IMG/VR virus record: IMGVR_UViG_3300017746_000112
Location: 1-27,228 of that record
Source of the DNA: a virus
Reading direction: 5' to 3' (one strand)
Length of the DNA stretch: 27,228 nt
Shown here in pieces: positions 4,530-22,922 of the stretch; the stretch's first letter is position 1, and the number at the start of each line of letters is the position of its first letter. The position numbers and the translations under genes were made by a program. Under the pieces are notes generated by a model, which worked only from the letters and a program-made list of their open reading frames with translations, had not been told where the DNA came from and searched no databases.

Positions 4530-5003
4530 TTAATTTGTATATAAATAATTAGTTTCTGTTGTTGTATGTTTTGTATATTTTACTTGTTCTTGTCCTGCTG
4601 TTTCTTGTATGTATAGTTTACCTTCTTCTACTTTACCCTGTATTATTCCGTGTGTACTAGCTACTGGTAGTATGTCGTTTTCTGTCGTAGGTGCGTTACC
4701 TGCACTTATAGCTACTGCACCAGTCCAACTAACCTCGTAAACTTCGTATTTCCAAAATCCGTACGGCTTGAAGTTTATTTTATACATATATAGGTCGTCT
4801 GTAGTATTGTGTAAGAACTCACATTTAACGTATCTGTCGTTGTGTACTAGACTTTCTGCGTAACTATACTTTACGTCTTTAGTCATATCGTTAGTAAACT
4901 TAAATAAATAACGTATAGCAGTTTTATCTACCGATGTATTTATTCTCTTTTCTTCTAACGTCAAATATGCTGTTACTGTACTACCGTAAACCCCTGTTAT
5001 CAT
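4530..5003 (-). CDS. Conserved-type Bacteroidetes phage structural protein, unknown role
   Basis: The 157-aa protein is predicted beta-rich, with a recognisable core: YLFKFTNDMTKDVKYSY, NDRYVKCEFLHNTTDD, then FKPYGFWKYEVYEVSW at about 77-92. I have seen this layout in other Bacteroidetes phage genomes near virion genes, without a known function. The C-terminal part (KVEEGKLYIQETAGQEQVKY) is another small beta unit. The ATG at 5001-5003 lies inside the 3' end of a late 17-bp element (5002-5018), so there is almost no leader sequence if transcription starts at or after the element. It is probably a virion component made late. Confidence 0.65.
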   Translation of the reverse strand: MITGVYGSTVTAYLTLEEKRINTSVDKTAIRYLFKFTNDMTKDVKYSYAESLVHNDRYVKCEFLHNTTDDLYMYKINFKPYGFWKYEVYEVSWTGAVAISAGNAPTTENDILPVASTHGIIQGKVEEGKLYIQETAGQEQVKYTKHTTTETNYLYTN

Positions 5004-5018
5004 ACTATATAATATAAA
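5002..5018 (-). promoter_or_regulatory. Late 17-bp element, copy 5
   Basis: On the minus strand this reads TTTATATTATATAGTAT and runs into the ATG of the 157-aa gene, sharing its AT. It is one of five copies with 15 of 17 invariant positions. It follows the 52-aa gene by only a few bases, so it may provide a fresh start of expression inside the late operon. Confidence 0.6.
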
Positions 5019-5028
5019 AACAAGTAAT

Positions 5029-5187
5029 TTATTTTTCTTTTGTTGAAACTGTTTTTTTCTTAGTCTTTGTAAAAAAGTGTTCTACTCCTAATAATTCTAC
5101 TTCGTTAGATCTTACGTTGTCTAATATAATCATACGACCTGTTTTATTTACTGTAACACCTTTGTATTGTTCTTTTAGTTTATACAT
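5029..5187 (-). CDS. 52-aa basic protein after an internal terminator
   Basis: ATG 5187 to TAA 5029 gives a 52-residue protein (MYKLKEQYKG ... TKTKKKTVSTKEK) with a VTVNKTGRMIILDNV core and a lysine-rich tail. The composition is coding-like, and a similar short 'YKLKE...G.E.FF' protein often occurs beside capsid genes in Bacteroidetes phages. An intrinsic terminator ends 17 nt upstream of the ATG, so only read-through transcripts would carry this gene unless a promoter is hidden in that gap. The function is unknown; it may be a small capsid- or tail-associated protein needed at low copy number. Confidence 0.55.
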   Translation of the reverse strand: MYKLKEQYKGVTVNKTGRMIILDNVRSNEVELLGVEHFFTKTKKKTVSTKEK

Positions 5188-5204
5188 CTTTTTTATTTTA
5201 AGTT

Positions 5205-5232
5205 AAAAAAAAGGGGTAGCTATTGCCACCCC
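5205..5232 (-). terminator. Rho-independent terminator inside the late operon
   Basis: On the minus strand the sequence forms an 8-bp stem, GGGGTGGC, loop AATA, then GCTACCCC (one G-T pair), followed directly by eight T. This is a strong GC stem in otherwise AT-rich DNA. It comes 34 nt after the end of the 187-aa tube-like gene and 17 nt before the ATG of the 52-aa gene. It would end or attenuate transcripts from the scaffold, capsid and tube genes. Confidence 0.85.
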
Positions 5233-5266
5233 CTTAATAAATATGAAAACAAAACCATTTAAGGTT

Positions 5267-5830
5267 TTAAGAAGTCACTATTGCGTTAATTGTAAACGCT
5301 GCGTTGTCGAACGGAGTTGTTGTATAGTCCGCTAAAAGTTGCATTGGATTAGGTTCTTGTGCCTCGAAAGTAAAATCATATCCTACTGTATCTCCTAGAG
5401 CAACCCCAGAAACTGAAGTACCTGCAGATAATTCGCAACCGTTGTCTAAACCTAAAGCTACAATAGTATTTTTACCTGTACTATTTAATTGGTTTAGTTC
5501 TGCGAAAATAACCATTCTTTGTTGTGCTAATAGTTTAATTTCGTTTTGGTCTTCTTTAGTTAAGTTATGTAGTTTTACATTTACAGAGTGTGTATAAAAT
5601 ACAGTACCATTTTCGCTAGATGCGTTAATAGTTTCTGTTACACTCCCTGTACCTCTTTTAAGTAAATACTTATATAAGTCGTCACCTGAACCTAAATCGA
5701 AGTCTGTTACTTCACCACTAGCTGCTGTGTAAGACGTTAATTCATCGTGTTGTGCGATATAGATAGCTTTGATACCACCGATACCATCTCTACAAGTTAT
5801 GTTACGTCCTTTTGTTAAATTACAAGACAT
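5267..5830 (-). CDS. Probable tail tube or other abundant virion protein
   Basis: The 187-aa protein has a beta-rich pattern with several Gly/Thr turns: TKGRNITCRDGIGGIKAIY near the N-terminus, a central TETINASSENGTVFYTHSVNVKLH, a helix (EDQNEIKLLAQQRMVIFAEL) and a C-terminal GYDFTFEAQEPNPM. A helix packed against a beta-sandwich with this length matches siphovirus tail tube proteins, and the gene lies directly after the major capsid gene and before a terminator, as expected for a highly expressed virion protein. No catalytic motif is present. It could instead be a capsid decoration or hub protein; the tube call is inference. Confidence 0.5.
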   Translation of the reverse strand: MSCNLTKGRNITCRDGIGGIKAIYIAQHDELTSYTAASGEVTDFDLGSGDDLYKYLLKRGTGSVTETINASSENGTVFYTHSVNVKLHNLTKEDQNEIKLLAQQRMVIFAELNQLNSTGKNTIVALGLDNGCELSAGTSVSGVALGDTVGYDFTFEAQEPNPMQLLADYTTTPFDNAAFTINAIVTS

Positions 5831-5856
5831 TTTTTTTAGGTTTTAAAGGTTAATAA

Positions 5857-6708
5857 TTACGATTGTTTAGTAAAGTCTGAAGGTACACCAACTTGAACTC
5901 CTGCAGTATATCTACAAACCATTCTTACTACGTCTGATCCTGTAATGTCGCCCATATCTAAAACTTTCACCTCTGTTAAATCTGAACTTAGTGAAGTTCC
6001 AAAAAATACGTTAGACTTAGTACCTGCCCACATTACGTTGTCAGCTACACCCGAACAAACAGCGATAGAAATTCCTTCAAATTCTGGTGTGTATTGCCCC
6101 ATATGGTTAAAAGGGAATGCAGATAAAGCAGAAATAGCAGATAAGTAAAATCTGTAAGTTTTCTTGTTCATATAAATATAAAGATCGTCTTTTCCGTAAA
6201 CCGCTGCTGGTATATCAGCTACTAAAGTACCTAAGTTAGCTATAATGTTTGCTGCTGTATAAGCTGCAGACGCAGACGAAGTACTCATACCTGACGCACT
6301 TAAAGCGTTAAATTGTCCTGACGTAGAAGTGTTACCTTGCCAGATGTTAAATTCGATACTGTCTGCAATACTATCTGAAAGGTAAGTCATTGCGTAAGCT
6401 ACAAAGTCGTCTTGTTGTTCGTGCGCCCAGTCAGATAACATAGTTTTTTTACAAACGTCAATGTTAATTTGAAAAGGTTCTACTTCTAAAACTTGTTCTG
6501 TTAGTGTTAATGTTGCAGAATTTTCTGTAAAGTCACAAGTTGCGTCTTTTACTAGGTTTGCTCCTGCTACCTTGTTGATTACTTCCTTGTAAGATACGTT
6601 CTCTCTTACAGTTAAGTACTCTAAACTATCCGCTGCTTTTAAAGCTGCCGATACGTAAGCCCCTGCGTGTTTACCAGCGTATGAGCTTGATGTAATAGTT
6701 AATGCCAT
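5857..6708 (-). CDS. Major capsid protein
   Basis: The 283-aa protein begins MALTITSSSYAGKHAGAYVSAALKA and has the layout of Bacteroidetes phage capsid proteins: an N-arm, an E-loop-like segment (LEVEPFQINIDVCKKTMLSDWAHEQQDDF), an alpha domain with YMNKKTYRFYLSAI and a C-terminal axial domain ending VRMVCRYTAGVQVGVPSDF. The closing 'V..Y..GV' strand pattern is typical of this group. It follows an XkdF-like protease, a coiled-coil protein and an acidic scaffold-like protein, which is the classic capsid assembly set. There is no separate delta domain in the protein, so the scaffold function is presumably supplied by the upstream genes. It assembles into the icosahedral shell. Confidence 0.82.
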   Translation of the reverse strand: MALTITSSSYAGKHAGAYVSAALKAADSLEYLTVRENVSYKEVINKVAGANLVKDATCDFTENSATLTLTEQVLEVEPFQINIDVCKKTMLSDWAHEQQDDFVAYAMTYLSDSIADSIEFNIWQGNTSTSGQFNALSASGMSTSSASAAYTAANIIANLGTLVADIPAAVYGKDDLYIYMNKKTYRFYLSAISALSAFPFNHMGQYTPEFEGISIAVCSGVADNVMWAGTKSNVFFGTSLSSDLTEVKVLDMGDITGSDVVRMVCRYTAGVQVGVPSDFTKQS

Positions 6709-6722
6709 CGTTTTATTATTTT

Positions 6723-7424
6723 TTAGTTATTATTAATGTTATACCAATATTTCTCTTGTCTACTCATATTTCTATAGTCTGTTGCAGACAATTCTTTAGT
6801 GTTCTTTTTATTAGAAAACTTGTTTGTAGTTACAGGTTCTGAAGCTGGTTCTTTAGAAAGTTCTTCTAATTGTGCAGATAAAGTTTCTTTTTCAACTTCT
6901 AAAGCTTCGTTAGTTCCTTTCATTTCTTCTAATTCAGAAGATAATCTACTAACATCGTTTCTAACTTCAGTAAGTAATTCTTTAATAACAGCGCCGATTT
7001 CTTCGATCACTTCTTCTTTATTAAATTCTACTTCCTCTGTTGTTTTAATTTTCTTAGGTAACCTTTCGTTTACTTCTGAAGGTTCTACTACTTCTTCTAC
7101 AATTTCTTCGTTCATCTCTACTTCTTCTTCGTCTTTGTAGTCTTCTTCTTTTTCTGTTTCTACTTCTTCAGTTTCTAAGATTTCTGCTACTACTCCTTCT
7201 TCTTCTACAGAAAAACCTACTCCGTCTTCTGTTTCGTAAACTCCAACAGGTAACGGCATAGTCGTTCCGTCTTCTGCAAGAATTGCTACGTCTACAGATG
7301 CTGCTAGTTCATCAGCAGAACTTACTATTATAGTACCGTCAATAAGTTTAGCTTGAAATTCTAAGTTAGTTGCTTCGTCTTTGTTAAGACCTAAAGCTTT
7401 TAAGATTTGTGTTTTTAATTCCAT
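6723..7424 (-). CDS. Acidic scaffold-like protein
   Basis: The 233-aa protein is extremely acidic in its middle (residues about 80-135, long Glu runs such as ETEKEEDYKDEEEVE) and continues into a coiled coil (about 137-190, VRNDVSRLSSELEEMKG). It closes with a polar, asparagine-rich tail. The N-terminal part (LEFQAKLIDGTIIVSS ... PLPVGVYETEDGVGFSVEEEGVV) is a small beta unit commonly paired with XkdF-type proteases in Bacteroidetes phages. A position directly before the major capsid gene and this composition support a scaffold that is removed during maturation. The gene has its own late 17-bp element 15 nt upstream of the ATG. Confidence 0.65.
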   Translation of the reverse strand: MELKTQILKALGLNKDEATNLEFQAKLIDGTIIVSSADELAASVDVAILAEDGTTMPLPVGVYETEDGVGFSVEEEGVVAEILETEEVETEKEEDYKDEEEVEMNEEIVEEVVEPSEVNERLPKKIKTTEEVEFNKEEVIEEIGAVIKELLTEVRNDVSRLSSELEEMKGTNEALEVEKETLSAQLEELSKEPASEPVTTNKFSNKKNTKELSATDYRNMSRQEKYWYNINNN

Positions 7425-7438
7425 TTTAATTTTGTTTT

Positions 7439-7455
7439 ATACTATATAATATAAT
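7439..7455 (-). promoter_or_regulatory. Late 17-bp element, copy 4
   Basis: On the minus strand this reads ATTATATTATATAGTAT. It ends 14 nt before the ATG of the acidic scaffold gene, in a 51-nt gap that holds no gene. Together with the copy at 20053-20069 it is one of only two copies separated from the start codon by a true leader. Confidence 0.6.
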
Positions 7456-7475
7456 TGTTTAAGTTCTATTTGATT

Positions 7476-8033
7476 TTAGTAATCGAAGTCTAATTTATTT
7501 AAAGGGTTGTCTTCTAATTTTCTAAAGTTGTTTACTTGTGTTTCGTATTGTGAAACATTTACTTTTAGCCCTAAATCTTTCGCACCTTTTTCTACTAACT
7601 CTATTGCGTCTTCTAATTTGTCTGCTATACTTTCTGCTTTATTATAACTTGTCATATATTTATCGTTAGCGTTAAATACTTTTTTAGCTGCTGCGTCTGC
7701 TTTTTTTCGTGATACGTCTGCTTTTTTATTTACTTTAGTATATTCTTTTTCGAATTTTTCGACTGATTTTTTAAAGTCTTCTAACTCTTTTTCTTTTTTA
7801 AGTAAATTTTCCCATTTGTTTTGCTCCGCTTCTTTATCTTGTTTAAATACTTCGTTTACTTTATTAAAATTACCTAATTCAGATTTTATTTTACTATCGT
7901 CTAATTTACTTACTAAACTTTTAAGTTGTCCTGTTAATTTTTCTAAAGTTTTAATATCTTTAAAATCAAATCTTTTAACTCCTTTGTGCTTGTCTAAGAT
8001 AGCGTTTAATTTTATTTCGTAGTCTTTATACAT
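7476..8033 (-). CDS. Coiled-coil assembly protein sharing a C-terminal segment with the protease
   Basis: The 185-aa protein is almost wholly helical and highly charged, with heptad-like stretches from about 60 to 150 (NKWENLLKKEKELEDFKKSV, KADVSRKKADAAAKKVF). Its C-terminal part (SYNKAESIADKL ... EKGAKDLGLKV, about 129-156) resembles the C-terminal part of the neighbouring protease (KAESEAKKLNKVF ... KKQAKDLGVPL). This suggests a common scaffolding or targeting segment. It lies between the protease and scaffold genes, 18 nt after the former, so a role in procapsid assembly is likely. There is no recognisable enzyme motif. Confidence 0.6.
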   Translation of the reverse strand: MYKDYEIKLNAILDKHKGVKRFDFKDIKTLEKLTGQLKSLVSKLDDSKIKSELGNFNKVNEVFKQDKEAEQNKWENLLKKEKELEDFKKSVEKFEKEYTKVNKKADVSRKKADAAAKKVFNANDKYMTSYNKAESIADKLEDAIELVEKGAKDLGLKVNVSQYETQVNNFRKLEDNPLNKLDFDY

Positions 8034-8051
8034 TTTATTTTATTTTATTTT

Positions 8052-8981
8052 TTAGTCTTCAATACCATACACAATAGAAGAAGCCTTTTCTAATTGACTT
8101 GCTGCGTTTCGTGTACTATTTTCGTAAGCGCTTGCGTTTCTTATTAAACCTGCTACTTCGTTAGGTAACGGTACACCTAAATCTTTTGCTTGTTTCTTTA
8201 CTTTTTCCCAATTGTTTTCTAAATCTGTAAATACTTTATTTAGTTTTTTTGCTTCACTTTCTGCTTTATCAATTATAGAACCCGCTTTCCTTGCAGAACT
8301 ATTTATAGAATTAAACTTGTCTATTGCTTTTTTCGTTTCTTTTTCTAAATCGTCAATAAGTCCTAAATTAACTTTTATTTTACCTTCTGCTTGTAGTTCT
8401 TTGTATGCAGTTCTTATTTGTTCGTCTGTGTATTGTTTACCCATTTTTTCTAATTTATCTACAAAATATCCTTCAATGCTTAAACCGCGTAACTCCCCTT
8501 CTTTTATCTTATCCCAAAGATCTGAATTTTCGATTTTCATTTTTACAAACCAAGTACCATTTGCTAAATCAAAACCGTATAGTTTACTTTTATCTTGGTC
8601 ACCTTCTTTTATCCAACTTTCTACTGTTAATACGCCCGATACTCTTTGTTCGTGTTGGTATGTTGCTTTATGGTGGTTGTTGTGTTTTAAGTAACTATAA
8701 GCTGCCTTCTTTACAGTATCTTTTGAAAAGTATACGTAATAGTCGCTGTCTGTATTTGCGTCGTATCTGTAGATCTGTTTATTAGGTATTAAAGCTGGTG
8801 CTATAAGTTCTCTTTTTTCTTCGTCTACTTTAGCAAAGGTTAAGTTATTCTTTTCTTTACCAAAAAATACAAAGTCTACTTCTATAGCTGGTGACGTTAC
8901 TAAACTAATTGCGTCAATTGCTAAAGCTTCGTTTTCTTCGTCTATAACTAATTCTGTTATCTTAGTTGTTTTCTTTTTCAT
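8052..8981 (-). CDS. XkdF-like prohead protease (Peptidase S78_2 type) with scaffold-like C-terminus
   Basis: The first ~180 residues of this 309-aa protein match the XkdF-type putative serine protease layout: ALAIDAISLVTSPAIEVDFVFF (20-40), a histidine in TYQHEQ (H110), VESWIKEG (120-127), WFVKMKIEN (144-152) and the serine in GELRGLSIEGYF (S168). H110 and S168 are the expected catalytic pair. The remainder is a charged coiled coil that resembles the next protein (see the 185-aa gene). Such proteases cut scaffold and capsid subunits during head maturation. The ATG at 8981 directly abuts a late 17-bp element, leaving almost no leader. Confidence 0.8.
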   Translation of the reverse strand: MKKKTTKITELVIDEENEALAIDAISLVTSPAIEVDFVFFGKEKNNLTFAKVDEEKRELIAPALIPNKQIYRYDANTDSDYYVYFSKDTVKKAAYSYLKHNNHHKATYQHEQRVSGVLTVESWIKEGDQDKSKLYGFDLANGTWFVKMKIENSDLWDKIKEGELRGLSIEGYFVDKLEKMGKQYTDEQIRTAYKELQAEGKIKVNLGLIDDLEKETKKAIDKFNSINSSARKAGSIIDKAESEAKKLNKVFTDLENNWEKVKKQAKDLGVPLPNEVAGLIRNASAYENSTRNAASQLEKASSIVYGIED

Positions 8982-8998
8982 ATACTATATAATATAAG
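8982..8998 (-). promoter_or_regulatory. Late 17-bp element, copy 3
   Basis: On the minus strand this reads CTTATATTATATAGTAT and is followed immediately by the ATG of the protease gene. It differs from the other copies only at the two variable positions. It lies in the 38-nt gap after the tape measure gene. Confidence 0.6.
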
Positions 8999-9019
8999 TT
9001 ATTTGTTATTATTTGATTT

Positions 9020-10858
9020 TTAAATTGTACTTCTTCTATTTATGTCTTCCATCTGTGCTTGACTATCTGTAATTTCTGATTCTACTACAAACGCCTTAAC
9101 CGCTTGTTGTTCTACACCACCTAAACTAAAAGCACCTGTACTTGCTGGTATCATAGTGTCTGGTACGTCTGTACCACCTACACCACTAGCACCACCTGTT
9201 TTTTCACTTTTAATATTTGCTATTTGTGCAATACCCATAGCTCCGTGTATACCCGCTTGTATAAGTCCAAAAGGTGCTGGTATGTCTGCTAACGCTCGCA
9301 TAATAGACTTACCCGTAAAAAATGCAGTTTCAGCAATTGCTATCTTTTTTTGTACTTTTTCGTTTTTACCTCCTAACGCTTTAGCTAGTTCAAAACCTTG
9401 TGTGTCCATACTAGCTTTAAAGTCTGCTTTGTTTTGTTCTCTTTGTAAATAATTAGCTTGCTCTGCGTCTAGTCGTTCTTGTCTTTTTTGTTCTAGTTCA
9501 TTAAGTATATTTTCACCTTCTGTACTAATAGTCAATAACCCGTCTACAGTGTCTTCTACATATCCTTTTTGTATGTCTTTACGTTTTTGTGTAAATTTTT
9601 CTTCTATTAAAAGCCTTTGTTCTTCATAGTTTGTAGCGTCTTGTATCTTTTCTAGTTGTAAATCTTTTTCAAATTTTAGTAAAGCTAGTTCTCTAGTTTC
9701 TTCGTCTTGTATTCTTTCTAGTGATAATCTTTTTGCTTCTTCTTGTAACGCTCTTAGGTCTTCTGCGTCTTTTTCTCTTTGTGCTTTTCGTTCTGACCTC
9801 CTTTGACTGCTACGCTGTCTTCTTTCGTTGTCTTTCTGTTCTTTATCCTGTTCTGCTGCTATTTCTTTTTGTACTGCTGCTATTTTTAAATCTAATATAT
9901 CTACATTATTTTGTAGTGTTGTAGAATTTTTTTGTAAAGTTGTGGTATTGTTTTGTATTATTCTTTGACTTTCTTTACTGTGGTCGCCTAAATTTTCTAA
10001 ATTGTCTGCGTTTTTATTTAGTTTATCTGAATTTTCATTTAAAGCAGTTTCGTTTTCATTTAATCTATTAGTTAACCTAACTAACTCTCTTTCTGCTTCT
10101 GTATTTGCTGCCGATAATTCTTGTTGTAACTTTCTATTTTTTAAAAATTCATTATTTTGATTTGCTAACTCTCTATTTAAGTTTGCTTGTGATTGTGTTA
10201 CGTTATCTGTAGCTGTAGCCCAGTCGTAAACAGCTTTCCCTATAGCTAAGATTGCAATAACTAAAGCACCAATACCTGTTGCTGCTATAGCTAGTTTTAA
10301 AGCTTTCAAACCTACAGTAGTTAAAGCTATAGTCCCGTTCCATACTCCTTGTGCTGTAGCTGCGATACCTGTTGCTACTGCTTGACCTTTTGTAACTACA
10401 ATACCTAGTTTAGATTGTACTATAGCTAGTTTTTCTGCGACAACCCTTTTAGCAGTAGTAGCCATCAAAGCCGCTTCACTCATCATACGTACACCCATTG
10501 CTATACTAATAGCCGCTTGTACTTTTACTTGTATCTTTTCTAAGTCTTCACTTTCAACACCTGCAAGTGCAAGACTTCCCTGCATTATTGCGAAACCGCC
10601 GGCTATACCCTCTCCCATCTTAAGAAAGGCCTCTGCCTTTTGTTGTGGCTCAAGTCCTTCTAAACCTTTTTCTAAGGTCTTAATTTCAGAACCTGTTTTT
10701 TGTATTTTTTGTGCTAAGGTTTCAAAAGCCTGACTACCTACTTCAACTTCTTTTATAGCATCTCTTGCGTCGTTTAACTCTTTTTCTAACTGTCCTAAAG
10801 TCTTTACGGCTTTGTCGCCTCCTTTTAGTTTTAATTCTAACTCTACTCTTTCACTCAT
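9020..10858 (-). CDS. Tail tape measure protein
   Basis: The 612-aa protein has the usual tape-measure pattern: an N-terminal coiled coil (LGQLEKELNDARDAIKEV), alanine/glycine-rich apolar segments at about 85-215 (GEGIAGGFAIMQGSLALAG, IAATGIGALVIAILAIGKAV) that may insert into the host membrane, then long charged coiled coils (about 230-470, RRQRSSQRRSERKAQREKD) and a C-terminal apolar stretch (about 500-545). Such proteins fill the tail tube and set its length. Using the usual ~1.5 A per residue, a tail of roughly 90 nm would be expected (estimate, not measured). It lies between the fibre gene and the protease gene, so it marks the tail/head module boundary. Confidence 0.85.
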   Translation of the reverse strand: MSERVELELKLKGGDKAVKTLGQLEKELNDARDAIKEVEVGSQAFETLAQKIQKTGSEIKTLEKGLEGLEPQQKAEAFLKMGEGIAGGFAIMQGSLALAGVESEDLEKIQVKVQAAISIAMGVRMMSEAALMATTAKRVVAEKLAIVQSKLGIVVTKGQAVATGIAATAQGVWNGTIALTTVGLKALKLAIAATGIGALVIAILAIGKAVYDWATATDNVTQSQANLNRELANQNNEFLKNRKLQQELSAANTEAERELVRLTNRLNENETALNENSDKLNKNADNLENLGDHSKESQRIIQNNTTTLQKNSTTLQNNVDILDLKIAAVQKEIAAEQDKEQKDNERRQRSSQRRSERKAQREKDAEDLRALQEEAKRLSLERIQDEETRELALLKFEKDLQLEKIQDATNYEEQRLLIEEKFTQKRKDIQKGYVEDTVDGLLTISTEGENILNELEQKRQERLDAEQANYLQREQNKADFKASMDTQGFELAKALGGKNEKVQKKIAIAETAFFTGKSIMRALADIPAPFGLIQAGIHGAMGIAQIANIKSEKTGGASGVGGTDVPDTMIPASTGAFSLGGVEQQAVKAFVVESEITDSQAQMEDINRRSTI

Positions 10859-10861
10859 ATT

Positions 10862-14421: not shown

Positions 14422-15869
14422 TACATTAATTGACTTTTCTTAGTTTTATCTACTTCTATTTTAAATGTATATTGTATTAATTTGTCGTTAGCTTTTGTTT
14501 TTCTTGTATGTGAACTATCCGTTACTGTAGTAGGTTTTATATACTTTCTCATATAGCCCTGTTGTGCTGTGTCTGTAGATCGTTGTTCTAATATATAGAC
14601 GTCATTACTTATAAATAGTTCTTCTAACCAAATAGCCTCGTTTTCTGTTATGTAGTCTGTGTTTAATGTTATACTTTCTTTTGTATTACTACCGAAGTAT
14701 TTTTTACCGCCTGTGTGCCCGTCTGGTCTGTACCTGCTTGTATTCCAAGTACCCGTTATTTGTGTGTAAGACTTTCTTTGTGTATTAAACGTTCTAACGG
14801 ACTTTTTCGTAAAGTTGTAGTAGTCCCATACCCCGAACTTATTTAACCAAGTTAAACGTATCGTTTCGTATTCTTTACAGTCTTCTGTTTGTTTGTAAAA
14901 CTTATATTCTTGACTAATAGCATCAACAGCCCCGAAAGCTTGTACTGTGTAATAATCCCAATTAGTCGGTATTGTTACACCTGCTCCTACTAAGTTACCT
15001 GTACCTATTCCTGCAAATTGTAGTTTAACATTACTGTCGTTCATATAACCACTATGTCCACCTGTCGATGCTTGTATAGTTTTCGTTATTAAAGAACCTG
15101 TAGTACTTCCGTTATAATAGAATTGTATTTTAACACTTCCTACAGAAGGGTGGGTTTGTCCTGCTGTACCTACTTCAAAATCAAAATCGTACTGGCTAAA
15201 ATAAGATAAAGTTAAATAGTCGTTTTCTCGTATGTATTGTGTAGTCGGTGCGTTAGTTAAAAACTTGTCTGTATTACTATTCATAACAAAACCCGCTTCG
15301 TCTAAGTTAAACCCAAAACTACCTGTACTATTTAAGTTTAAAATATCTGTATCGTATAGTACACCGTTATATATTAAAACAGTGTCTGCAATAGTATTAG
15401 ATGTATATTGTTCTGTTACCGATCCTGTAGCACTATCAGAAGCTTCTATATTAAACCTTACCGCAACAAACCTAACACTATTTCTATTTGTACTAAAGTC
15501 GTCTATTTGGTGTATTGTGTGGGGTGTGTTTTCTGTATAGTCTACTCCGTTGTATTGCGAATTGTTTAAAGTATTTGTGTTGTGTACTGTACCCCCTGTG
15601 TATTCTGGGCTTACATAGTTTTGTAAAATAGGTGACAAGTCAAATATTCCGTAACCTTCACCGTTAGGACTTACTTTAAATACTCCTACTCTATTAGCAC
15701 TTGAAACTATATTAGAAGTTTTGTTACTTACATATACTTCTGCTTTATATTTTATTTTAAACTTATTGTTTATAGGGTTTATAGTTACTGCGTCGTATAG
15801 TGTGTAAATTATATTGCTACCTGCTGGTATAAGTCTATATCTGGGTTTTTGTTCTATTACTAAACTCAT
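14421..15869 (-). CDS. Tail or baseplate structural protein
   Basis: The 482-aa protein is beta-rich throughout and has no enzyme motif. The start (VIEQKPRYRLIPAGSNIIYTLYD) and the segment KVSPNGEGYGIFDLSPILQNYV (about 66-87) match a pattern I associate with Bacteroidetes siphophage tail proteins encoded next to the large baseplate protein. The middle contains a conserved-looking YETIRLTWLNKFGVWDYYNFTKKS (about 335-358). Coupling by 1-nt overlaps to the gp10-like gene upstream and the 904-aa gene downstream supports a role in the distal tail. The exact function is unknown. Confidence 0.6.
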   Translation of the reverse strand: MSLVIEQKPRYRLIPAGSNIIYTLYDAVTINPINNKFKIKYKAEVYVSNKTSNIVSSANRVGVFKVSPNGEGYGIFDLSPILQNYVSPEYTGGTVHNTNTLNNSQYNGVDYTENTPHTIHQIDDFSTNRNSVRFVAVRFNIEASDSATGSVTEQYTSNTIADTVLIYNGVLYDTDILNLNSTGSFGFNLDEAGFVMNSNTDKFLTNAPTTQYIRENDYLTLSYFSQYDFDFEVGTAGQTHPSVGSVKIQFYYNGSTTGSLITKTIQASTGGHSGYMNDSNVKLQFAGIGTGNLVGAGVTIPTNWDYYTVQAFGAVDAISQEYKFYKQTEDCKEYETIRLTWLNKFGVWDYYNFTKKSVRTFNTQRKSYTQITGTWNTSRYRPDGHTGGKKYFGSNTKESITLNTDYITENEAIWLEELFISNDVYILEQRSTDTAQQGYMRKYIKPTTVTDSSHTRKTKANDKLIQYTFKIEVDKTKKSQLM

Positions 15870-16423
15870 TATTTAAATTTCATTTTTTTATTCATAACTT
15901 TTATTCCTTTTAGTACATCATCTTTAAAAGCTTTTTCCATTTCTTTTTTAAATTCGTTATAACTCCAACTTAAAGGTTGTGTATAAAAACTTAGTGCACG
16001 TATACCTTTACTTTTAATACTTCTAGCTATTAGAAACGCTAAAGACTTTCTAGTTATAAACCTACCTTTACGGTCACGTCCTCTAATACCCTTGATTTTA
16101 GTCCAATCCGATATAACGTTACTAGGAGGTTGTTTGCTTCTAAAACGAAACGGACTAGCTTTTCTTTTACCCCTTTCATCTATATAGGTTCTTCTTACTT
16201 TGTTACCTGAAACACCTTTATTTAAAAATGCTGCGTGCTTACTAGCTAAAAATTTTAATTCGTAACCGTCTTTTGTTTCTTTTACTTTATGTTTTAAAGA
16301 AGCTTGTAAGTTACCTGTTGCTGTATTAAATTTTAGCAATTTTTTTGCCTGTCTTACAATATATTTACCGTAAGAATTTAAATATTTTTCTACGCTCTTA
16401 TATTCTAAATCGAATAAAGTCAT
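15869..16423 (-). CDS. Tail completion / gp10-like neck protein
   Basis: The 184-aa basic protein begins with a helix and then shows TGNLQASLKHKV (about 37-48), ELKFLASKHAAFLNKGVSG (55-73) and an Arg/Lys-rich middle. The 'Y.L.F....YA.F...G' pattern is that of HK97 gp10-type tail completion proteins, in which a small beta domain presents a G-containing loop. Such proteins join the tail tube to the head. The C-terminal helix (YNEFKKEMEKAFKDDVLKGIK) is typical too. It overlaps both neighbours by one base. Head-tail joining proteins normally lie between head and tail genes, but here it is among tail genes. Confidence 0.6.
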   Translation of the reverse strand: MTLFDLEYKSVEKYLNSYGKYIVRQAKKLLKFNTATGNLQASLKHKVKETKDGYELKFLASKHAAFLNKGVSGNKVRRTYIDERGKRKASPFRFRSKQPPSNVISDWTKIKGIRGRDRKGRFITRKSLAFLIARSIKSKGIRALSFYTQPLSWSYNEFKKEMEKAFKDDVLKGIKVMNKKMKFK

Positions 16424-16872
16424 TATACACTAGCTACAAATACTTCTACTTTAATATCGTTAGTAGTTGTAGGTCTAACTTGTATGCTAGCTAAGTCTTC
16501 CATAGTTCCGAAACTTGGTGAAGTGTCTGCTTCTGCTAGTAGTATATCGTCACCGTTATATATTACGTGTGTAGCCCCCGCCCTTAACCTTACTTGGTAT
16601 AACGTAGCACTTCCTACAAAAGCTATTTCTGCTTCGTTAGTATCGTCTAAGTTAGTTATTCTAATATACTTTGCGTTGTCTTTGTCTAAAGCTCCTGTAG
16701 ATGAGTGAGGACTTGCTGCAAAAGCTACAATAGTTGTAGTTTGCGAGTGTGTACAAGTTTCTACTCGTTCGTAAGTGTGGTTTATACCTGTTGTTGTAAG
16801 TGTGTTTGTAGAACCTCTGTTAGTTCCGTTAATTGTTACACTTTCTGAAATTGTAATTTGTAAGTCTGACAT
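16423..16872 (-). CDS. Putative virion protein, beta-rich
   Basis: The 149-aa protein is Thr/Ala/Ser-rich and beta-prone (ISESVTINGTNRGSTNTLTTTG; CTHSQTTTIVAF; KYIRITNLDDTNEAEIAFV; YQVRLRAGATHVIYNGDDIL). It has no membrane span or enzyme motif. The KYIRITNLDD ... L.AG pattern resembles small phage decoration or tail-tube-associated proteins. It lies between a 116-aa helical gene and the gp10-like gene, so it is probably structural. It could even be a tube protein, competing with the 187-aa product at 5267-5830. Confidence 0.55.
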   Translation of the reverse strand: MSDLQITISESVTINGTNRGSTNTLTTTGINHTYERVETCTHSQTTTIVAFAASPHSSTGALDKDNAKYIRITNLDDTNEAEIAFVGSATLYQVRLRAGATHVIYNGDDILLAEADTSPSFGTMEDLASIQVRPTTTNDIKVEVFVASV

Positions 16873-16873
16873 A

Positions 16874-17224
16874 TTATTTTTTATCTATTTGTTTAAGTTT
16901 ATTTATTGCCCAATTTATACCACTAGAACCGCCCCACGCATCCCACATAATACCCCCGCAACCTTCGCTGTATGGTACGTCTTTATGTTGTTGGTGTCTT
17001 TTAAATGAAGACATACGCGCTATAGTATCTCTAGATATAGGTTTTCTGTCTGCTAATTGTCTTGCTCTAGTCCAACCTACACGAGTACCACAACTACTAC
17101 CGTTTTCTTCTTTGTACTCTATAGCTCGTTTAGCGTTGTTAGTTGCTGCTTGTGGATAGTCTGTATAACTTTCTAACTCTATACTTATTTCTTCTAGTTT
17201 CTCTATTACTTCGTTATAGTCCAT
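16874..17224 (-). CDS. Stand-alone 'GTxVGWxRARQLA' helical domain protein
   Basis: The 116-aa protein consists of ATNNAKRAIEYKEENGSSCG (27-46), then GTRVGWTRARQLADRKPIS (46-64), DTIARMSSFKRHQQHK (66-81) and IMWDAWGGSSGINWAI. I recognise this segment as one that is usually a C-terminal extension of phage head proteins (portal, protease or minor head proteins), where its function is not known. Here it is a free-standing gene in the tail module. The conserved Arg, His and Trp residues suggest nucleic acid contact or protein packing rather than catalysis. It is separated by 45 nt from the upstream gene and 1 nt from the downstream one. Confidence 0.65.
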   Translation of the reverse strand: MDYNEVIEKLEEISIELESYTDYPQAATNNAKRAIEYKEENGSSCGTRVGWTRARQLADRKPISRDTIARMSSFKRHQQHKDVPYSEGCGGIMWDAWGGSSGINWAINKLKQIDKK

Positions 17225-17269
17225 AAGTTATTTTTGGTGGTATTAATTGTATTGTTAATTTTCCTATTT

Positions 17270-17779
17270 TTATTTTGAACATATTGTAGTATTGTCTATT
17301 GGTACAATACAACTATTCAATTCGTTTTCTACTGTTATTGCAAAAGACATAACCCAACCTGTTACTGCGTTGTCGTATTCTTCTGTAAATGGTTCAATTG
17401 TAAAGTCGTTGTCTATAAAGTATCTTTGTTCCTCTCCTGCTGCTGCGTCGTATGCGTATAGTATCTCACCTTGTTTATATACTGCTATTATGTCGTTCAT
17501 TATTTCTAAACAGTCACTTAGTACTTCTTGTTCGTTACTACTGTCTGGTTCTACTAAGTTCATTACAAACAACTGAAAGTTAAACGATCTTGTATTTTGT
17601 CCTACCGTTACGTTTACGGGGTTTATATGAAACAAAGGAAATAGTGTATTCTTTTCTAAGTCAATAGTCCAGATGTCACCACTTGTAACAGTATTTATAT
17701 TTAAGTGTTGTTGTCCTACACACTTTAAGGTATCTATTACGTTATTGTAACTTTTAAATCTTATGCTGTCTATACTCAT
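17270..17779 (-). CDS. Putative tail terminator-type structural protein
   Basis: The 169-aa protein has a ferredoxin-like alternating pattern: YNNVIDTLKCVGQQHLNINTV (11-31), DIWTIDLEKNTLFPLFHINP, then NFQLFVMNLVEPDSSNEQEVLSDCLEIMNDIIAVY (about 67-101), and a C-terminal TGWVMSFAITVENELNSCIVP. This succession of beta-strand, helix and strand with a C-terminal 'F.I.V.N.L' strand matches tail terminator or tail-to-head joining proteins. It overlaps the 3' end of the frameshifted chaperone extension by 26 nt, and its ATG lies inside that extension. The call rests on the fold pattern and context only. Confidence 0.5.
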   Translation of the reverse strand: MSIDSIRFKSYNNVIDTLKCVGQQHLNINTVTSGDIWTIDLEKNTLFPLFHINPVNVTVGQNTRSFNFQLFVMNLVEPDSSNEQEVLSDCLEIMNDIIAVYKQGEILYAYDAAAGEEQRYFIDNDFTIEPFTEEYDNAVTGWVMSFAITVENELNSCIVPIDNTTICSK

Positions 17780-18005
17780 TTTCTATTTTTTGGTTTACGT
17801 CTTTTTTATAACTCATAAATGTTAAACATTCGTACGCTGGTTTCTTTACTACTTGTTCTACGTTTAAAAAGTTTTCGTTTGCTAACATATAGATAGCGTT
17901 GTACCATCCCCACTTTTTAGCTAGTCCGTCACTAAATCCTTCTTCGTCAGTTTCTCTATTGAAGACTTCTTCGAATTTATTAAAAGTTGCGTTCCTAAAT
18001 CGTAA
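17754..18005 (-). CDS. Frameshift extension of the tail assembly chaperone (gpT-like, -1 frame)
   Basis: In the -1 frame relative to the chaperone gene, an open frame of 83 codons runs from the T9 run to a TAA at 17754-17756. The translated sequence (LRFRNATFNKFEEVFNRET, DEEGFSDGLAKKWGWYNAIY, LANENFLNVEQVVKKPAYEC, LTFMSYKKDVNQKIENEYRQ) is clearly protein-like. The same frame is closed by a TAA five codons before the TTA at 18003-18005, and the first ATG occurs only at extension residue 40, so there is no ATG, GTG or TTG to start the conserved-looking part. Frameshifting at 18004-18012 would give a fusion of about 261 aa (178 + 83). This is like the G/GT pair of lambda-type phages. Confidence 0.7.
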   Translation of the reverse strand, partial: LRFRNATFNKFEEVFNRETDEEGFSDGLAKKWGWYNAIYMLANENFLNVEQVVKKPAYECLTFMSYKKDVNQKIENEYRQHKI

Positions 18006-18538
18006 AAAAAAACCGAAGCACCGTTAAAGTCTTCTACCTTTAAATGTTTCTTAAATAGATCTGCTCGTTCTTCGTTAGGTTCGTAGTCTTCTATTCTATA
18101 CTTGTCGTCCTTCTTTGCTGTAACAGGTCTGTATAATATACTTAGAATATTATGTAGATTTTCTTCTAAGTTTTCTGTATATGTTTCTAAGTCTACAAAT
18201 TCCCCTAAAGTCATATCTACTAACTTCGGATGGAAACCATACTCTACACCTTCTATTTCTATAAAGTGTTTAAGTTCGTCTGTAGGTACTGTTTCTAAAA
18301 ACGTAGTTAAGTGTTTACCTAACTTACCTATACTTTTCATATCCAAACCGTACAACTGCCTTTTAGGTATATCTGTAATACAATTAAGTATTCTTATAAC
18401 CTTTTCAATATCGTGTACGTCCTCATCTTTTTTAAGAACTGACATAAGTCTTTGATACCTTCCTAAGTTTAATTCGTCAAAACTTTCAGGTATATTAAAA
18501 CTTAACTTCTTCTTACCGTTCAATAGTTTTACTTTCAT
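17921..18538 (-). CDS. Tail assembly chaperone (gpG-like), zero-frame product
   Basis: The 205-aa protein starts MKVKLLNGKKKLSFNIPESFDELNLGRYQRL, a pattern common in Bacteroidetes phage proteins encoded upstream of the tape measure, then is mostly helical (IEKVIRILNCITDIPKRQLY; MTLGEFVDLETYTENLEENL). It ends with GASVFFYDLGTQL and a lysine-rich tail. A T9 run at codons 176-179 would allow a -1 shift to the 83-residue extension, leaving this shorter product as the major form. Such pairs bind the tape measure and guide tail tube assembly. The gene is not directly next to the tape measure, which is unusual. Its ATG lies in a late 17-bp element. Confidence 0.65.
   Translation of the reverse strand: MKVKLLNGKKKLSFNIPESFDELNLGRYQRLMSVLKKDEDVHDIEKVIRILNCITDIPKRQLYGLDMKSIGKLGKHLTTFLETVPTDELKHFIEIEGVEYGFHPKLVDMTLGEFVDLETYTENLEENLHNILSILYRPVTAKKDDKYRIEDYEPNEERADLFKKHLKVEDFNGASVFFYDLGTQLLINSKKSSIEKLTKKDLVTD
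18004..18012 (-). promoter_or_regulatory. Slippery T9 run, putative -1 ribosomal frameshift site
   Basis: On the minus strand the zero frame reads TCG GTT TTT TTT TAC. The nine T (complement of 18004-18012) allow both tRNAs to slip back one base and re-pair, as at T TTT TTT heptamers. After a -1 shift the frame reads TTA CGA and enters the 83-codon extension. I cannot judge a downstream stimulatory structure by eye. Confidence 0.65.
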
Positions 18539-18553
18539 AGTATATAATATAAA
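18537..18553 (-). promoter_or_regulatory. Late 17-bp element, copy 2
   Basis: On the minus strand this reads TTTATATTATATACTAT and its last two bases are the first two of the ATG of the chaperone gene. It lies in the 30-nt gap after the terminase large subunit gene. The variable position near the 3' end is C here instead of G. Confidence 0.6.
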
Positions 18554-18568
18554 TTTGTTGTTTTTAGT

Positions 18569-19771
18569 TTACTGTACGAAGTACTTACCTGCGTTAGGGT
18601 TGTCTAAGTGGTATATTACGTTATAACGTATAGCGTCTATAGCGTGGTTAAAACTATCTACGTATAATTTAGAACCTTTATCTGCGTATATATAGTTGTT
18701 TAATTCTTTAACTATATTTATACTGTCAGGTTCTACTATTAGTTCGTAGTCTTGCATTCGTGTTACTCCACTTTCTATTGTTCCTTTTTTTACAGGTCTT
18801 ATATTAACTCCCGTATGTCTTAGGTCTTCTATTAGTCTAGGTTCTGCACTATCCGCTACTATTAGTTTATTACCTACTTTGTTTAATACAATCTTTGCTA
18901 ACTCGTGTGACTTTAACCCGTTTCTGTATATATGTTCTTTAAGGTATATTTTCTTTTTCGTTTTGTCTATAGCTATTTCTATTAAAGTATCTGGATCAAC
19001 AGAAAACCCGAAGTCCATACCGCAAGACGTTTGTAAGTCGTTAGGGTTAAACCTTCCTATACTCCAATTCTCAAATACTACACCTTCTGCTTTATCTAAC
19101 CAACCCCCAAGTATTTTATGGTTATACTTCTTTATATTGTTTTCTTGTATTGTTTCTATACGTTGTAAAAAACTTTCGTTTAAGTTGTGTTTGTTATCTA
19201 AGTATGTTGAGTGTATATAACAGATGTCGTCTTTAATACCATTAAAACCTGCTTCTACACCTCTGTTTTCAAAGAACCTTTTATATATCCAGTGTTCCTT
19301 TGTTGTAGGGTTAAGTATTAATACTATTCTGTTTTGTACTCCCTTTTCTCTAATTGATAGATCTATAGTGTCAAAAGTGTTTTCGTCTATTAGTTCTTCT
19401 GCTTCGTCAAGTACCCAACAACTAATACCTTGTAAAGACTTTAGACTTGCTGTCTGGTTTCCTGAAGAAGTCTTAATACCTCTAAATATAATATCGCTGT
19501 TTGTTTTAGTATTGACTACTTCGGACTTGTTAATATTAAAGATACTCGTAAAACCTAATAACCCGATTTTCTCTAAAAACTCTGGTACAATACTTAGGTG
19601 TGCACTAATCATAGTATAACGAGTAAACAATACCCTAACACCTTTAGACATAGTTAGTAGTGTTAAGAATACTGTAACTGCAAAAGACTTACCAGAACCT
19701 CGACCACCTGTAACTATGTAATATCTACAATTAGATGTAAATAGATTATTGTATTTACTATTTAGGTTCAG
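18569..19771 (-). CDS. terL: Terminase large subunit (TerL), apparent non-AUG start
   Basis: The large subunit is an ATP-driven packaging motor and nuclease. Starting at CTG (19769-19771) gives 400 aa. Walker A is GGRGSGKS at 22-29, Walker B is CWVLDE at 118-123, and the C-terminal nuclease has D253 (GMDFGFSVDPDT), D307 (IVADSAEPRLIEDL) and D379 (SFNHAIDAIRY), in the order of PBSX-type terminases. The first ATG is at 19651, after Walker A; a protein from there would lack it. The frame is closed by TAG at 19775-19777, so translation must begin in a few codons. CTG fits the expected N-terminus (NLNSKYNNLFTSN), but +1 recoding from TerS cannot be excluded. It overlaps TerS by 14 nt. Confidence 0.85.
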   Translation of the reverse strand: MNLNSKYNNLFTSNCRYYIVTGGRGSGKSFAVTVFLTLLTMSKGVRVLFTRYTMISAHLSIVPEFLEKIGLLGFTSIFNINKSEVVNTKTNSDIIFRGIKTSSGNQTASLKSLQGISCWVLDEAEELIDENTFDTIDLSIREKGVQNRIVLILNPTTKEHWIYKRFFENRGVEAGFNGIKDDICYIHSTYLDNKHNLNESFLQRIETIQENNIKKYNHKILGGWLDKAEGVVFENWSIGRFNPNDLQTSCGMDFGFSVDPDTLIEIAIDKTKKKIYLKEHIYRNGLKSHELAKIVLNKVGNKLIVADSAEPRLIEDLRHTGVNIRPVKKGTIESGVTRMQDYELIVEPDSINIVKELNNYIYADKGSKLYVDSFNHAIDAIRYNVIYHLDNPNAGKYFVQ

Positions 19772-20027
19772 TGTCTATAAAGTTTATTAGTGGCATATTC
19801 AAACTTTCGTCGTTTGTCGTTACGTCTACTCTTTGTTGAGGTTTACCGTAAAAGTACTCAAAGAATAATTTAACACTCCACTGTTCTTGGTTGTCTAAAC
19901 CCTTTTTTAAAGCTGCTAGTGCTTTACTGTTCATAGGTGTTAAGTGTTCTATAAGTTTCTGTTCTTCTGCTTTACTCTTACGACCTGATCCTTTTCTAGC
20001 ACCACCGTTGTTTTTCCTTTTGTCCAT
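19758..20027 (-). CDS. terS: Terminase small subunit-like protein (TerS)
   Basis: Starting at ATG 20027 gives 89 aa: MDKRKNNGGARKGSGRKSK is a basic N-terminus with an AT-hook-like GSGRK, followed by helices (EEQKLIEHLTPMNSKALAAL; NQEQWSVKLFFEYFYGKPQQ) and a short C-terminal tail (RVDVTTNDESLNMPLINFID). The 'GGARKGSGRK ... FFEYFYGKP ... V' layout matches small terminase-like proteins that precede TerL in Bacteroidetes phages. They recognise DNA and start packaging. A frame extension to TTG 20051 would start within the late 17-bp element, so I prefer the ATG. The gene directly follows the early module, so it is the first late gene. Confidence 0.75.
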   Translation of the reverse strand: MDKRKNNGGARKGSGRKSKAEEQKLIEHLTPMNSKALAALKKGLDNQEQWSVKLFFEYFYGKPQQRVDVTTNDESLNMPLINFIDTEPK

Positions 20028-20052
20028 AATTGAAATAAATTGATTAACCAAT

Positions 20053-20069
20053 ATAATATATAATATAAA
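20053..20069 (-). promoter_or_regulatory. Late 17-bp element, copy 1, at the start of the late module
   Basis: On the minus strand this reads TTTATATTATATATTAT. It ends 25 nt before the TerS ATG in the gap between the early and late modules, and so is the best placed of the five copies to act as a promoter for the late genes. Its upstream end overlaps a 19-bp perfect palindrome. Confidence 0.6.
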
Positions 20070-20083
20070 TAAGTCTTATTTAT
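20065..20083. repeat. Perfect inverted repeat at the early/late boundary (operator-like)
   Basis: ATAAATAAG, one central base, then CTTATTTAT: two perfect 9-bp arms. It covers the stop codon of the last early gene (20076-20078) and overlaps the late element at 20053-20069. A homodimeric regulator could bind here. It has no T run and few GC pairs, so it is a weak terminator candidate. Confidence 0.5.
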
Positions 20084-20309
20084 TTGTTTCGGGTTCTTCT
20101 AAGACAAAGTTAAACTCTGACATACTCCATACCCTTATTTGTTCGCAATAGTCTTTAAATTCGTTTGTATTAAGTTCTTTACTTGTATCTGCTATAAACA
20201 GATCTTTTAGTATTTCGTGCATTTCGAACTTATGGTAACCCAAGTAGTTACCTAATGGTATTACTATACACTTAAAATAATATTTGTTTTGTGCGTGTGT
20301 TCTATTCAC
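20076..20309 (-). CDS. Small phage protein of the 'THAQNKYYF' type (NinB-like region)
   Basis: The 77-aa protein starts with GTG at 20309 (MNRTHAQNKYYF), then IVIPLGNYLGY, KFEMHEILKDLFI (28-40), STKEL-type residues (TSKELNTNEFKDYCEQIRVW at 42-61) and a short tail. The pattern 'R..QN.YY ... MHE.LK..F ... ST.EL...EF..Y...IR.W' is familiar from Bacteroidetes and other phages and resembles part of NinB-type recombination proteins, but the full NinB length is not present. It overlaps the upstream zinc-ribbon gene by 8 nt and is the last gene of the early module. Any role in recombination is inference. Confidence 0.55.
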   Translation of the reverse strand: MNRTHAQNKYYFKCIVIPLGNYLGYHKFEMHEILKDLFIADTSKELNTNEFKDYCEQIRVWSMSEFNFVLEEPETNK

Positions 20310-22872: not shown

Positions 22873-22922
22873 AATTCAATAATATAAATATTTTAGTTTT
22901 ATTTTACTATTTTTTTATATAG

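Follow-up and report, generated by a model that had tools for sequence, protein, structure and literature searches.

Late genes of the window and the element before them

The window, that is, the whole 27,228-nucleotide stretch of IMG/VR virus record IMGVR_UViG_3300017746_000112 that was analysed, has 39 listed genes, five of which are preceded by copies of a single element. These genes and the promoters predicted before them are given below, together with TerL, which served as the query for retrieving relatives, and a sigma-like gene.

21584..22147, minus strand: ECF-like sigma, 187 aa, TTG start; weak matches to PHROG 36/1740 and to Sigma70_r4
20054..20086, minus strand: predicted promoter 1, before the TerS-like gene; 33-bp pattern with 0 mismatches, 31.9 bits; predicted transcription start 20054, with a 30-nt leader that contains TTGGTTAATCAA
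19758..20024, minus strand: TerS-like gene, preceding TerL; PHROG matches weak, function unknown; promoter 1
18569..19651, minus strand: TerL; PHROG 3717 (5.5e-35)
18538..18570, minus strand: predicted promoter 2, before the 205-aa gene after TerL; 0 mismatches, 28.0 bits; predicted transcription start 18538, the A of the ATG
17921..18538, minus strand: 205-aa gene after TerL, an ORF; PHROG 32199, unknown function; promoter 2
8983..9015, minus strand: predicted promoter 3, before the head maturation protease; 1 mismatch, 29.8 bits; predicted transcription start 8983, leader 2 nt
8052..8981, minus strand: head maturation protease; PHROG 24921, 15223 and 3017; promoter 3
7440..7472, minus strand: predicted promoter 4, before the scaffold-like gene; 1 mismatch, 29.4 bits; predicted transcription start 7440, leader 16 nt
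6723..7424, minus strand: scaffold-like gene, preceding a capsid-like gene; no PHROG match better than E 0.04; promoter 4
5003..5035, minus strand: predicted promoter 5, before the 157-aa gene; 0 mismatches, 26.1 bits; predicted transcription start 5003, the A of the ATG
4530..5003, minus strand: 157-aa gene, an ORF; no PHROG match; promoter 5

The 205-aa gene was called a chaperone in the earlier note on this DNA; the PHROG that it matches is of unknown function.

An exact search reproduced the five copies of a 17-bp repeat that the earlier note had described: HTTATATTATATANTAT occurs at 20053-20069, 18537-18553, 8982-8998, 7439-7455 and 5002-5018, on the minus strand only, with 15 of 17 positions invariant (positions 1 and 14 vary) and with no further exact copy on either strand of the window. 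Exact copies were absent from 300 dinucleotide shuffles of the window, and a search with up to three mismatches, which is weak if taken alone, found 23 matches versus 10.2 expected and a shuffle maximum of 22. The repeat is thus real but only half of the element, since an upstream block that had been overlooked, [AC]AA[AC]TAAA, lies at a fixed spacing and completes a bipartite element of 33 bp. The 33-bp pattern fits three of the window sites without mismatch and two with one, and a 33-nt matrix scores all five at 26-32 bits. The next-best matrix score in the window, 14.5 bits at 22887, agrees with the earlier statement that the early module holds no full copy; likewise, the host TAnnTTTG box is found in none of the five elements, and the placement before late genes is borne out by gene positions and by relatives.

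The motif search over the whole phage and its relatives that had been proposed showed the element to be conserved and strand-specific. In 147 fetched loci, a set that takes in overlapping stretches of the same contigs, the exact core occurs 33 times in sense and never in antisense, and the core with at most one mismatch 137 times versus 6. Among 15 whole records, the 33-bp pattern with at most two mismatches gave 43 matches in 11 records, on one strand per record and with 2-5 copies ahead of late genes in each, while the pattern read backwards gave none; at the same threshold, two records with an L160-type sigma, P12024S and a Riemerella phage had no match. These two counts and the DNA-only scan described below are independent of matrix training. 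The matrix itself was trained on sense-strand seeds, so its 154:0 strand ratio is no independent test, and its set of 85 nonredundant loci still contains recurring homologous sites (weighted number, ~17). A TerL search of GTDB genomes returned two MAG contigs, labelled Euryarchaeota and Pseudooceanicola, which we take for misbinned phage and which name no host.

A sigma-like protein diverging in parallel with the element

The likely reader of the element, judged from sequence and predicted fold, is the 187-aa ECF-like two-domain sigma encoded at 21584-22147. Its AlphaFold model (whole-chain pTM, 0.45) matches ECF sigma L and sigma E, sigma L being the best match both in Foldseek (E 2.1e-4) and in VIA (Z 9.7, a tool in which Z below about 13 can reflect an arrangement common in helical proteins). 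Residues 1-81 of the model compare with solved sigma2 at 2.0 Å and residues 120-187 with sigma4 at 2.6 Å, and the two domains occur without sigma1 or sigma3, as in the ECF type. At the sequence level, the protein reaches 14.8 bits against Pfam Sigma70_r4, for which the cut-off is 24.1; among 37 members of this sigma group, matches at E ≤0.1 were obtained by 7 for Sigma70_r2 and by 30 for Sigma70_r4. Proteins of the L064 and L160 types link the window sigma to P12024S_33, annotated "Sigma-70 region 2", so that fold and remote homology together place it in the sigma family. Direct searches of 50,697 phage records with the window sigma gave no match, nor did searches of phage records with the L160 and L064 sigmas, and the P12024S sigma matched only four P12024S/L records. 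A sigma match was absent from 33 of 170 examined sequences, a figure that includes any cut short by a contig end.

The earlier suggestion that a phage sigma-like protein is the partner of the element is supported by this fold and by the way sigma and element diverge in parallel, as seen in the P12024 clade, in L064/L070 and, on two branches only, at sigma residue 76. The Nonlabens phages P12024S and P12024L (JQ823122, JQ823123) resemble the window in having a homologous TerL (64%), a small sigma directly ahead of the late genes and a bipartite element that ends at the ATG. In P12024S, however, the sigma has diverged and the element differs in sequence (AAACAAA..CGTTAAT), yet it holds the same place relative to the ATG; the GenBank feature tables of both phages annotate no promoter. 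In this clade, AAACAAA and CGTTAAT, separated by 13-14 nt, are found at 19 distinct sense sites versus 0 antisense, and 13 of the sites have an ATG at +5, with GTTAAT consequently in the -11 to -6 interval used by window-type sites. L064/L070, two near-identical contigs that count as one event, have kept TerL (84% and 83%) with a sigma that is 28% identical to that of the window. They lack the window element (best score, 6.9 bits) and have in common AGCGTTTA-type sites at TerS and at the gene after TerL; AGCGTTT by itself is also found within genes, 11 times in sense and 4 times in antisense. The L160 sigma type offers only three candidate sites, with GTTAACAT found 3 times in sense and 0 in antisense and GGTTAAC 3 times in each.

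Sites are present in 136 of the 162 loci with a window-type sigma (87 distinct sigma proteins, counted by locus). Throughout these 136 loci, sigma residue 76 follows motif position 3 without exception, R occurring with C in 109 and N or H with A in 27; the window sigma carries N76. Among later loci, R pairs with C in 16 of 16 parsable new sigmas, residue 76 having been parsed in 16 of 21 and position 3 being restricted to A or C in the search pattern. With only two independent changes behind it, this covariation did not reach statistical proof (sign test, p 0.5). Residue 76 is N or T in a third lineage (L146/L179/L180/L181), whose element has diverged and falls outside the window register. A residue-neutral matrix also returned 12 matches with A at position 3 in R loci, which were set aside for lack of the TATTATATA core, as was one weak match with G at position 3 in L103. 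Of the 26 loci without a site, 20 have less than 1.7 kb after the sigma and 4 are the L146 clade; L110 and L122 lack a site despite 2.8 and 3.2 kb after the sigma.

Transcription start, start codon and competing readings

Three copies touch or overlap an ATG, as the earlier note had pointed out: those at 18537 and 5002 overlap it, both exactly at the ATG, and the copy at 8982 touches it. From the A at motif position 15, the ATG lies 16 nt away at copy 7439 and 30 nt away at copy 20053. A DNA-only scan of newly fetched loci (hits on L065 and L095 left out; sites counted as distinct at any sequence difference) yielded at least 131 distinct sites, 129 of them followed within 30 nt by a reading frame that begins with ATG. 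Among the matches listed, the A of the ATG falls exactly at position 15 (offset 0) in 73 of 131 and at offset +2 or +3 in 29; the sites span 7 gene clusters. In the TerS family, 45 sites have their element 22-30 nt ahead of the ATG. Relative to the ATG, TATTAT occupies -11 to -6 in offset-0 sites, which fits a -10 element if transcription begins on the start codon. About half of the sites, TerS excepted, thus have a -10-like element ~10 bp before what appears to be the true ATG: in codons 2-16 of offset-0 genes, third positions vary most in all 10 clusters with similar N termini and at least four members (change sums of 1902, 1133 and 3861 for positions 1, 2 and 3), and they dominate codons 2-6 in 9 of the 10, an excess right after the ATG which indicates that coding runs from there.

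We consider it probable that the element serves the phage-encoded ECF-like sigma as its late promoter and that many of its sites give leaderless mRNAs. Domain 4 of the sigma would contact [AC]AA[AC]TAAA (about -32 to -25), while its domain 2 would contact TT[AC]TATTATATANT (about -14 to -1); the host RNA polymerase would thereby be led to five transcription units of late genes, and transcription would begin at the A of "..TATATANTA". This A would be that of the start codon at about half of the group's sites, including two of five in the window, and the late mRNA would then be leaderless; others would give leaders of 1-3 nt, and TerS leaders of 22-30 nt. What the data show directly is the sites, their two-part structure, their strand and position before genes, the fixed place of the ATG, the fold of the sigma and its divergence alongside the element; recognition by the window sigma, the exact transcription start and leaderless translation are inferred. 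The puzzle that the earlier note saw in the overlap with the ATG would vanish, TATTAT being the -10 element and +1 the A of the ATG.

A phage-sigma promoter may instead start transcription several bases from A15, in which case the leader would be short, or a start codon farther downstream would be used, and the mRNAs would not be truly leaderless. The 29 sites with an ATG 2-3 nt downstream would suit this reading, which we nevertheless find unlikely given that -10-like hexamers lie at -11 to -6 in both the window-type and the P12024 groups, that Flavobacterium johnsoniae promoters have 4-5 nt from the -7 box to the start (PMC6847099), that phiEco32 sigma promoters start 6-8 bp past their element (PMC8948821) and that third-position changes directly after the ATG speak against a downstream start codon. 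We regard it as very improbable that the element serves as a signal for translation initiation at the start codon. No other single spacing is as common as offset 0 among the matches listed, and flavobacteria lack Shine-Dalgarno sites (PMC6847099), but the TerS-family spacing, the restriction to 5 of 39 genes, the second block ~30 nt upstream and the change of element with sigma all argue otherwise.

We attach just as little probability to a site where another phage factor would act, either as an operator or for RNA processing, beside an ordinary host promoter. The core is nearly palindromic, the genome is AT-rich and the TerS leader has a further palindrome (perfect arms of at least 5 are found in 11 of 30 TerS leaders versus 17% of shuffles, weakly above). 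Against this, every copy points one way, the element follows the sigma across lineages, and none of the perfect TAnnTTTG boxes on the sense strand falls in the 120 nt ahead of the 205-aa gene, the protease, the scaffold or the 157-aa gene. A host sigmaA promoter was rejected on similar grounds: scoring perfect boxes only, we found 15 in sense and 28 on the opposite strand, none close before late starts bar one, which stands 81 nt ahead of TerS, within the gene that precedes it. Chance or a simple AT-rich leader, which the ~68% A+T of the genome might suggest, is least probable of all in view of the shuffles and of the 33:0 strand bias in relatives. Of the alternatives that the earlier note had listed, leaderless transcription is therefore favoured, while a translational signal, an RNA-processing site and an operator account less well for an element that has two blocks, varies with the sigma and at some genes stands 16-30 nt from the ATG; the interpretation given there is partly supported.

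Precedents and significance

The reading of the element as a phage-sigma promoter has counterparts in gp36 of phiEco32 and gp47 of phage 7-11, sigma factors that redirect host RNA polymerase to few conserved late promoters (PMC8948821, PMC4331800); a recurrent same-strand element before late genes is what we found here as well. The two proteins share 15% identity, and their promoters, though unlike in sequence, occupy similar genome places. These are enterobacterial phages with other elements, GTAAtg-(16)-aCTA and tAATGTAtA, and the accessible parts of their descriptions mention no start codon built into the promoter (PMC8948821, PMC4331800). In Thermus phage phiYS40, as proposed here, most middle and late mRNAs lack leaders; its host belongs to another phylum, and the accessible part of the report names no phage sigma (PMC3594737). 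In flavobacterial hosts, sigmaA recognises TAnnTTTG, and a motif named SM6 that contains a conserved CGT box is ascribed to ECF sigmas (PMC9723704). This box recalls CGTTAAT of the P12024 clade and is similarly distant from the start, whereas the window element differs from host promoters in having no TTTG (PMC9723704). Titles and abstract openings in the open-licence literature held nothing on this element or on leaderless late promoters in Bacteroidota phages. Phage-sigma late promoters and leaderless mRNAs each have precedent; their proposed combination in Bacteroidota-type phages appears to be new.

Our results propose a late-gene switch for a marine phage group for which we found no description of transcription in the open-licence literature, and predict exact transcription starts for late genes. 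They also provide a natural series of sigma factors and promoters (TTATATTAT, TTCTATTAT, CGTTAAT and AGCGTTTA), with residue 76 as a candidate specificity residue. It is an evenly balanced question whether, in these Bacteroidota-type phages, late promoter and start codon are fused, so that the sigma would set the starts of both transcription and reading and most late mRNAs would be leaderless. How ribosomes would start on such messages is then a question of its own in hosts with rare leaderless mRNAs, which make up 5.5% of 890 host mRNAs in Flavobacterium psychrophilum (PMC9723704). If true, the fusion of promoter and start codon would let the phage bypass the leader-reading translation rules of its host, and this architecture would have persisted while the sigma and its DNA code changed repeatedly.

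A bipartite element ahead of late genes

The 17-mer HTTATATTATATANTAT occurs in five exact copies in the whole 27,228-bp IMG/VR record, all on the minus strand, at 20053-20069, 18537-18553, 8982-8998, 7439-7455, and 5002-5018, as the earlier note had claimed; 300 dinucleotide shuffles of the window produced no copy. That note had also placed three copies at an ATG, and indeed two overlap the start codon and one touches it; the remaining two lie upstream of the ATG, giving leaders that run 16 and 30 nt from A15, the A of motif position 15 and predicted transcription start. Elsewhere in the window, a weak match (22872-22887, 14.5 bits) adjoins the GTG start of a NinG-like gene and is possibly a degenerate or host-type promoter.

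TerL served to fetch one set of relatives (best 80 of 398) and the sigma-like gene product another (best 80 of 315); the combined set comprises 147 loci and 1.51 Mb, overlaps included. The element recurs in these related genomes with the strand bias seen in the window: across the 147 loci, the sense strand holds 33 exact copies of the core and the antisense strand none, and allowing one mismatch raises these counts to 137 and 6. The 100 seed sites (85 non-redundant loci), which include repeated homologous sites and carry a weighted number of ∼17, read TT[AC]TATTATATANTA, with [AC]AA[AC]TAAA upstream at constant spacing, and each of the two central A's of this block is present in 99 of them. 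The upstream block was found at all five window sites with at most one mismatch. With up to two mismatches, the 33-bp pattern gave 43 matches in 11 of 15 whole records, at 2 to 5 per record and confined to one strand within each, and the backwards-read pattern gave none in the same 15 records. At that threshold, the pattern had no match in two records with a diverged, L160-type sigma (G011 and G012), in Nonlabens phage P12024S, or in a Riemerella phage. At G005:C1:14190-14222 (record of L103), the core of a late-type element is shifted (TTATATTATAATATA).

Element position and gene starts

Among 154 matrix matches scoring >20 bits, the A of the ATG falls at position 15 (offset 0) in 80, and the ATG lies at +1 in 4, at +2 in 12, and at +3 in 3; the TerS family accounts for 45, with 22 to 30 nt to the ATG, and the rest comprises 7 at +10 to +28 and 3 without a reading frame. 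When IMG/VR was scanned using only the DNA pattern, with sites counted in newly fetched loci, at least 131 distinct sites and, among the matches listed, 7 gene clusters were obtained; 73 of these 131 sites are at offset 0, 29 at +2 or +3, and 27 at +4 to +30, and 2 are frameless, again among the matches listed. We compared codons in 10 clusters, each with at least four offset-0 genes with similar N-termini. Third-position differences predominate over codons 2 to 16 in all 10 (difference sums at positions 1, 2, and 3: 1902, 1133, and 3861), and codons 2 to 6 alone show a third-position excess in 9; coding therefore starts at these ATGs.

With A15 taken as +1, TATTAT would lie at -11 to -6, which fits the 4 to 5 nt separating promoter box and start in F. 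johnsoniae (a passage of PMC6847099) and the spacing of 6 to 8 bp reported for phiEco32 sigma promoters (a passage of PMC8948821). Offset-0 sites would then yield leaderless mRNAs, a kind uncommon in flavobacteria and accounting for 5.5% of 890 mRNAs in F. psychrophilum (an excerpt of PMC9723704).

Other sequences were observed near gene starts. The TerS leader (window 20024-20054) often carries a palindrome immediately past the predicted transcription start (TTGATTAATCAA, TTGGTTAATCAA, TTGAATAATCAA, and TCAGTTAACTGA, with paired changes by eye), and different palindromes occupy it in the relative loci L064 (AATCAATATTGATT) and L036; by arm length, the palindromes are only weakly above shuffles, and they may serve as an operator or form a 5' hairpin that controls TerS. 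At window 17224-17269, a AATACCACCAAAAATAACTT-like stretch, unlike the late element, lies directly ahead of a gene start, as it also does in a dozen fetched relatives (e.g., L032 8377).

A predicted sigma factor and its parallel divergence with the element

The window encodes a candidate sigma factor.

21584-22147, minus strand: sigma-like gene, 187 aa, weak family matches, ∼1.5 kb ahead of the first late promoter

Its AlphaFold model (36 sequences; pLDDT 78.3, pTM 0.45) has a sigma fold. The top Foldseek match is ECF sigma L (E 2.1e-4, no other match being <0.001), as is the top VIA match (Z 9.7, a value that can be common among helical proteins). Residues 1-81 align to a SigR sigma2 fragment (70 residues, 2.0 Å) and residues 120-187 to sigma E region 4 (68 residues, 2.6 Å); the whole-chain rmsd is large (∼16 Å), as expected because the two domains are joined flexibly. 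The protein is homologous to those of L064 and L160, and both of these to P12024S_33, annotated in the P12024S GenBank record as containing Sigma-70 region 2; no direct match between the window and P12024S sigmas was found, and the two are linked via the L064 and L160 proteins.

Sigma and element have diverged in parallel. L064 and L070 are near-identical contigs, representing one natural swap event, in which TerL is kept (84% and 83%); the L064 sigma has 28% identity to that of the window, and the top window-matrix score is just 6.9 bits in either contig. AGCGTTTA-type sites lie ahead of TerS and ahead of the gene after TerL in both. Since AGCGTTT by itself also turns up inside genes (11 sense and 4 antisense occurrences across three loci), what defines this element is its position at the two homologous starts. 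At TerS, L036 carries a similar site, and a search of the L036 contig gave no sigma. The TerL match of L070 (1793-3163) covers 1371 nt instead of 1080 and is spread over two ORFs, which would fit an interrupting insertion of ∼290 nt.

The window element is absent from P12024S, which has a TerL homologous to that of the window (64%) and a strongly diverged sigma. The element of P12024S itself consists of AAACAAA, a gap of 13 to 14 nt, CGTTAAT, and then the ATG, and eight loci of its clade hold 19 distinct sense sites and no antisense site. By script, the ATG is at +5 in 13 of the 19, so that GTTAAT takes the same -11 to -6 place; at the L175 site, the script took an ATG directly after CGTTATT, and the listed reading frame begins at +5. 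Six GenBank-annotated P12024S coding sequences start at ATGs of this element.

A window-type sigma is encoded in 162 loci, and 136 of them have at least one site; of the other 26, 20 have <1.7 kb beyond the sigma, 4 belong to the diverged L146 clade, and two are L110 and L122. In the 136 loci (87 distinct sigma proteins), residue 76 and motif position 3 pair as R with C (109), N with A (26), and H with A (1), with no exceptions in a count that leaves out 12 weaker R-locus matrix matches with A at position 3, because they are without the TATTATATA core, and one G match in L103. In the model of the window sigma, N76 is placed in a loop flanked by predicted helices 45-73 and 78-87. Among later loci, fetched by a DNA pattern that admitted A or C only at position 3, R pairs with C in 16 of 16 parsable new sigmas. 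A 106-row tree with the residues masked contains two motif changes, each accompanied by a residue change, so few independent changes that significance is out of reach in a sign test; L146 has a third residue change, in a clade with a diverged element. The sites of that clade (L146 3575 and 6677, L180 8607 and 11935, L181 8607 and 12498) lie at the same genes and are partly ATATATA..TATTATG-like.

Proposed mechanism and known phage systems

What the sequence analysis demonstrates is the sites, their bipartite form, their geometry relative to the ATG, the sigma fold, and the parallel divergence. From these we infer that the phage sigma, encoded ahead of the late genes, would recruit the host's RNA polymerase to each of the five late transcription units. 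In this scheme, sigma4 would contact the AAA-block (about -32 to -25) and sigma2 the TATTAT region, transcription would begin at A15, and translation from offset-0 starts would be leaderless. The relation to the Nonlabens phage suggests a host within the Flavobacteriia. Two GTDB MAG contigs labeled Euryarchaeota and Pseudooceanicola (L341 and L342) carry the same phage type, with one C-type element each, and are probably misbinned phage.

Phage sigmas with their own late promoters are already known, and in the phiEco32/7-11 pair, sigmas and promoters have diverged and promoter places are alike (passages of PMC8948821). Most middle and late mRNAs of phiYS40 are leaderless (an excerpt of PMC3594737); in part of the AR9 paper, leaderless phage transcripts are called frequent, and phiKZ late promoters are described with a TATG motif in which transcription starts at the G (PMC5312081). 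In our literature search, neither the window element nor leaderless late promoters of Bacteroidota phages came up in any report.
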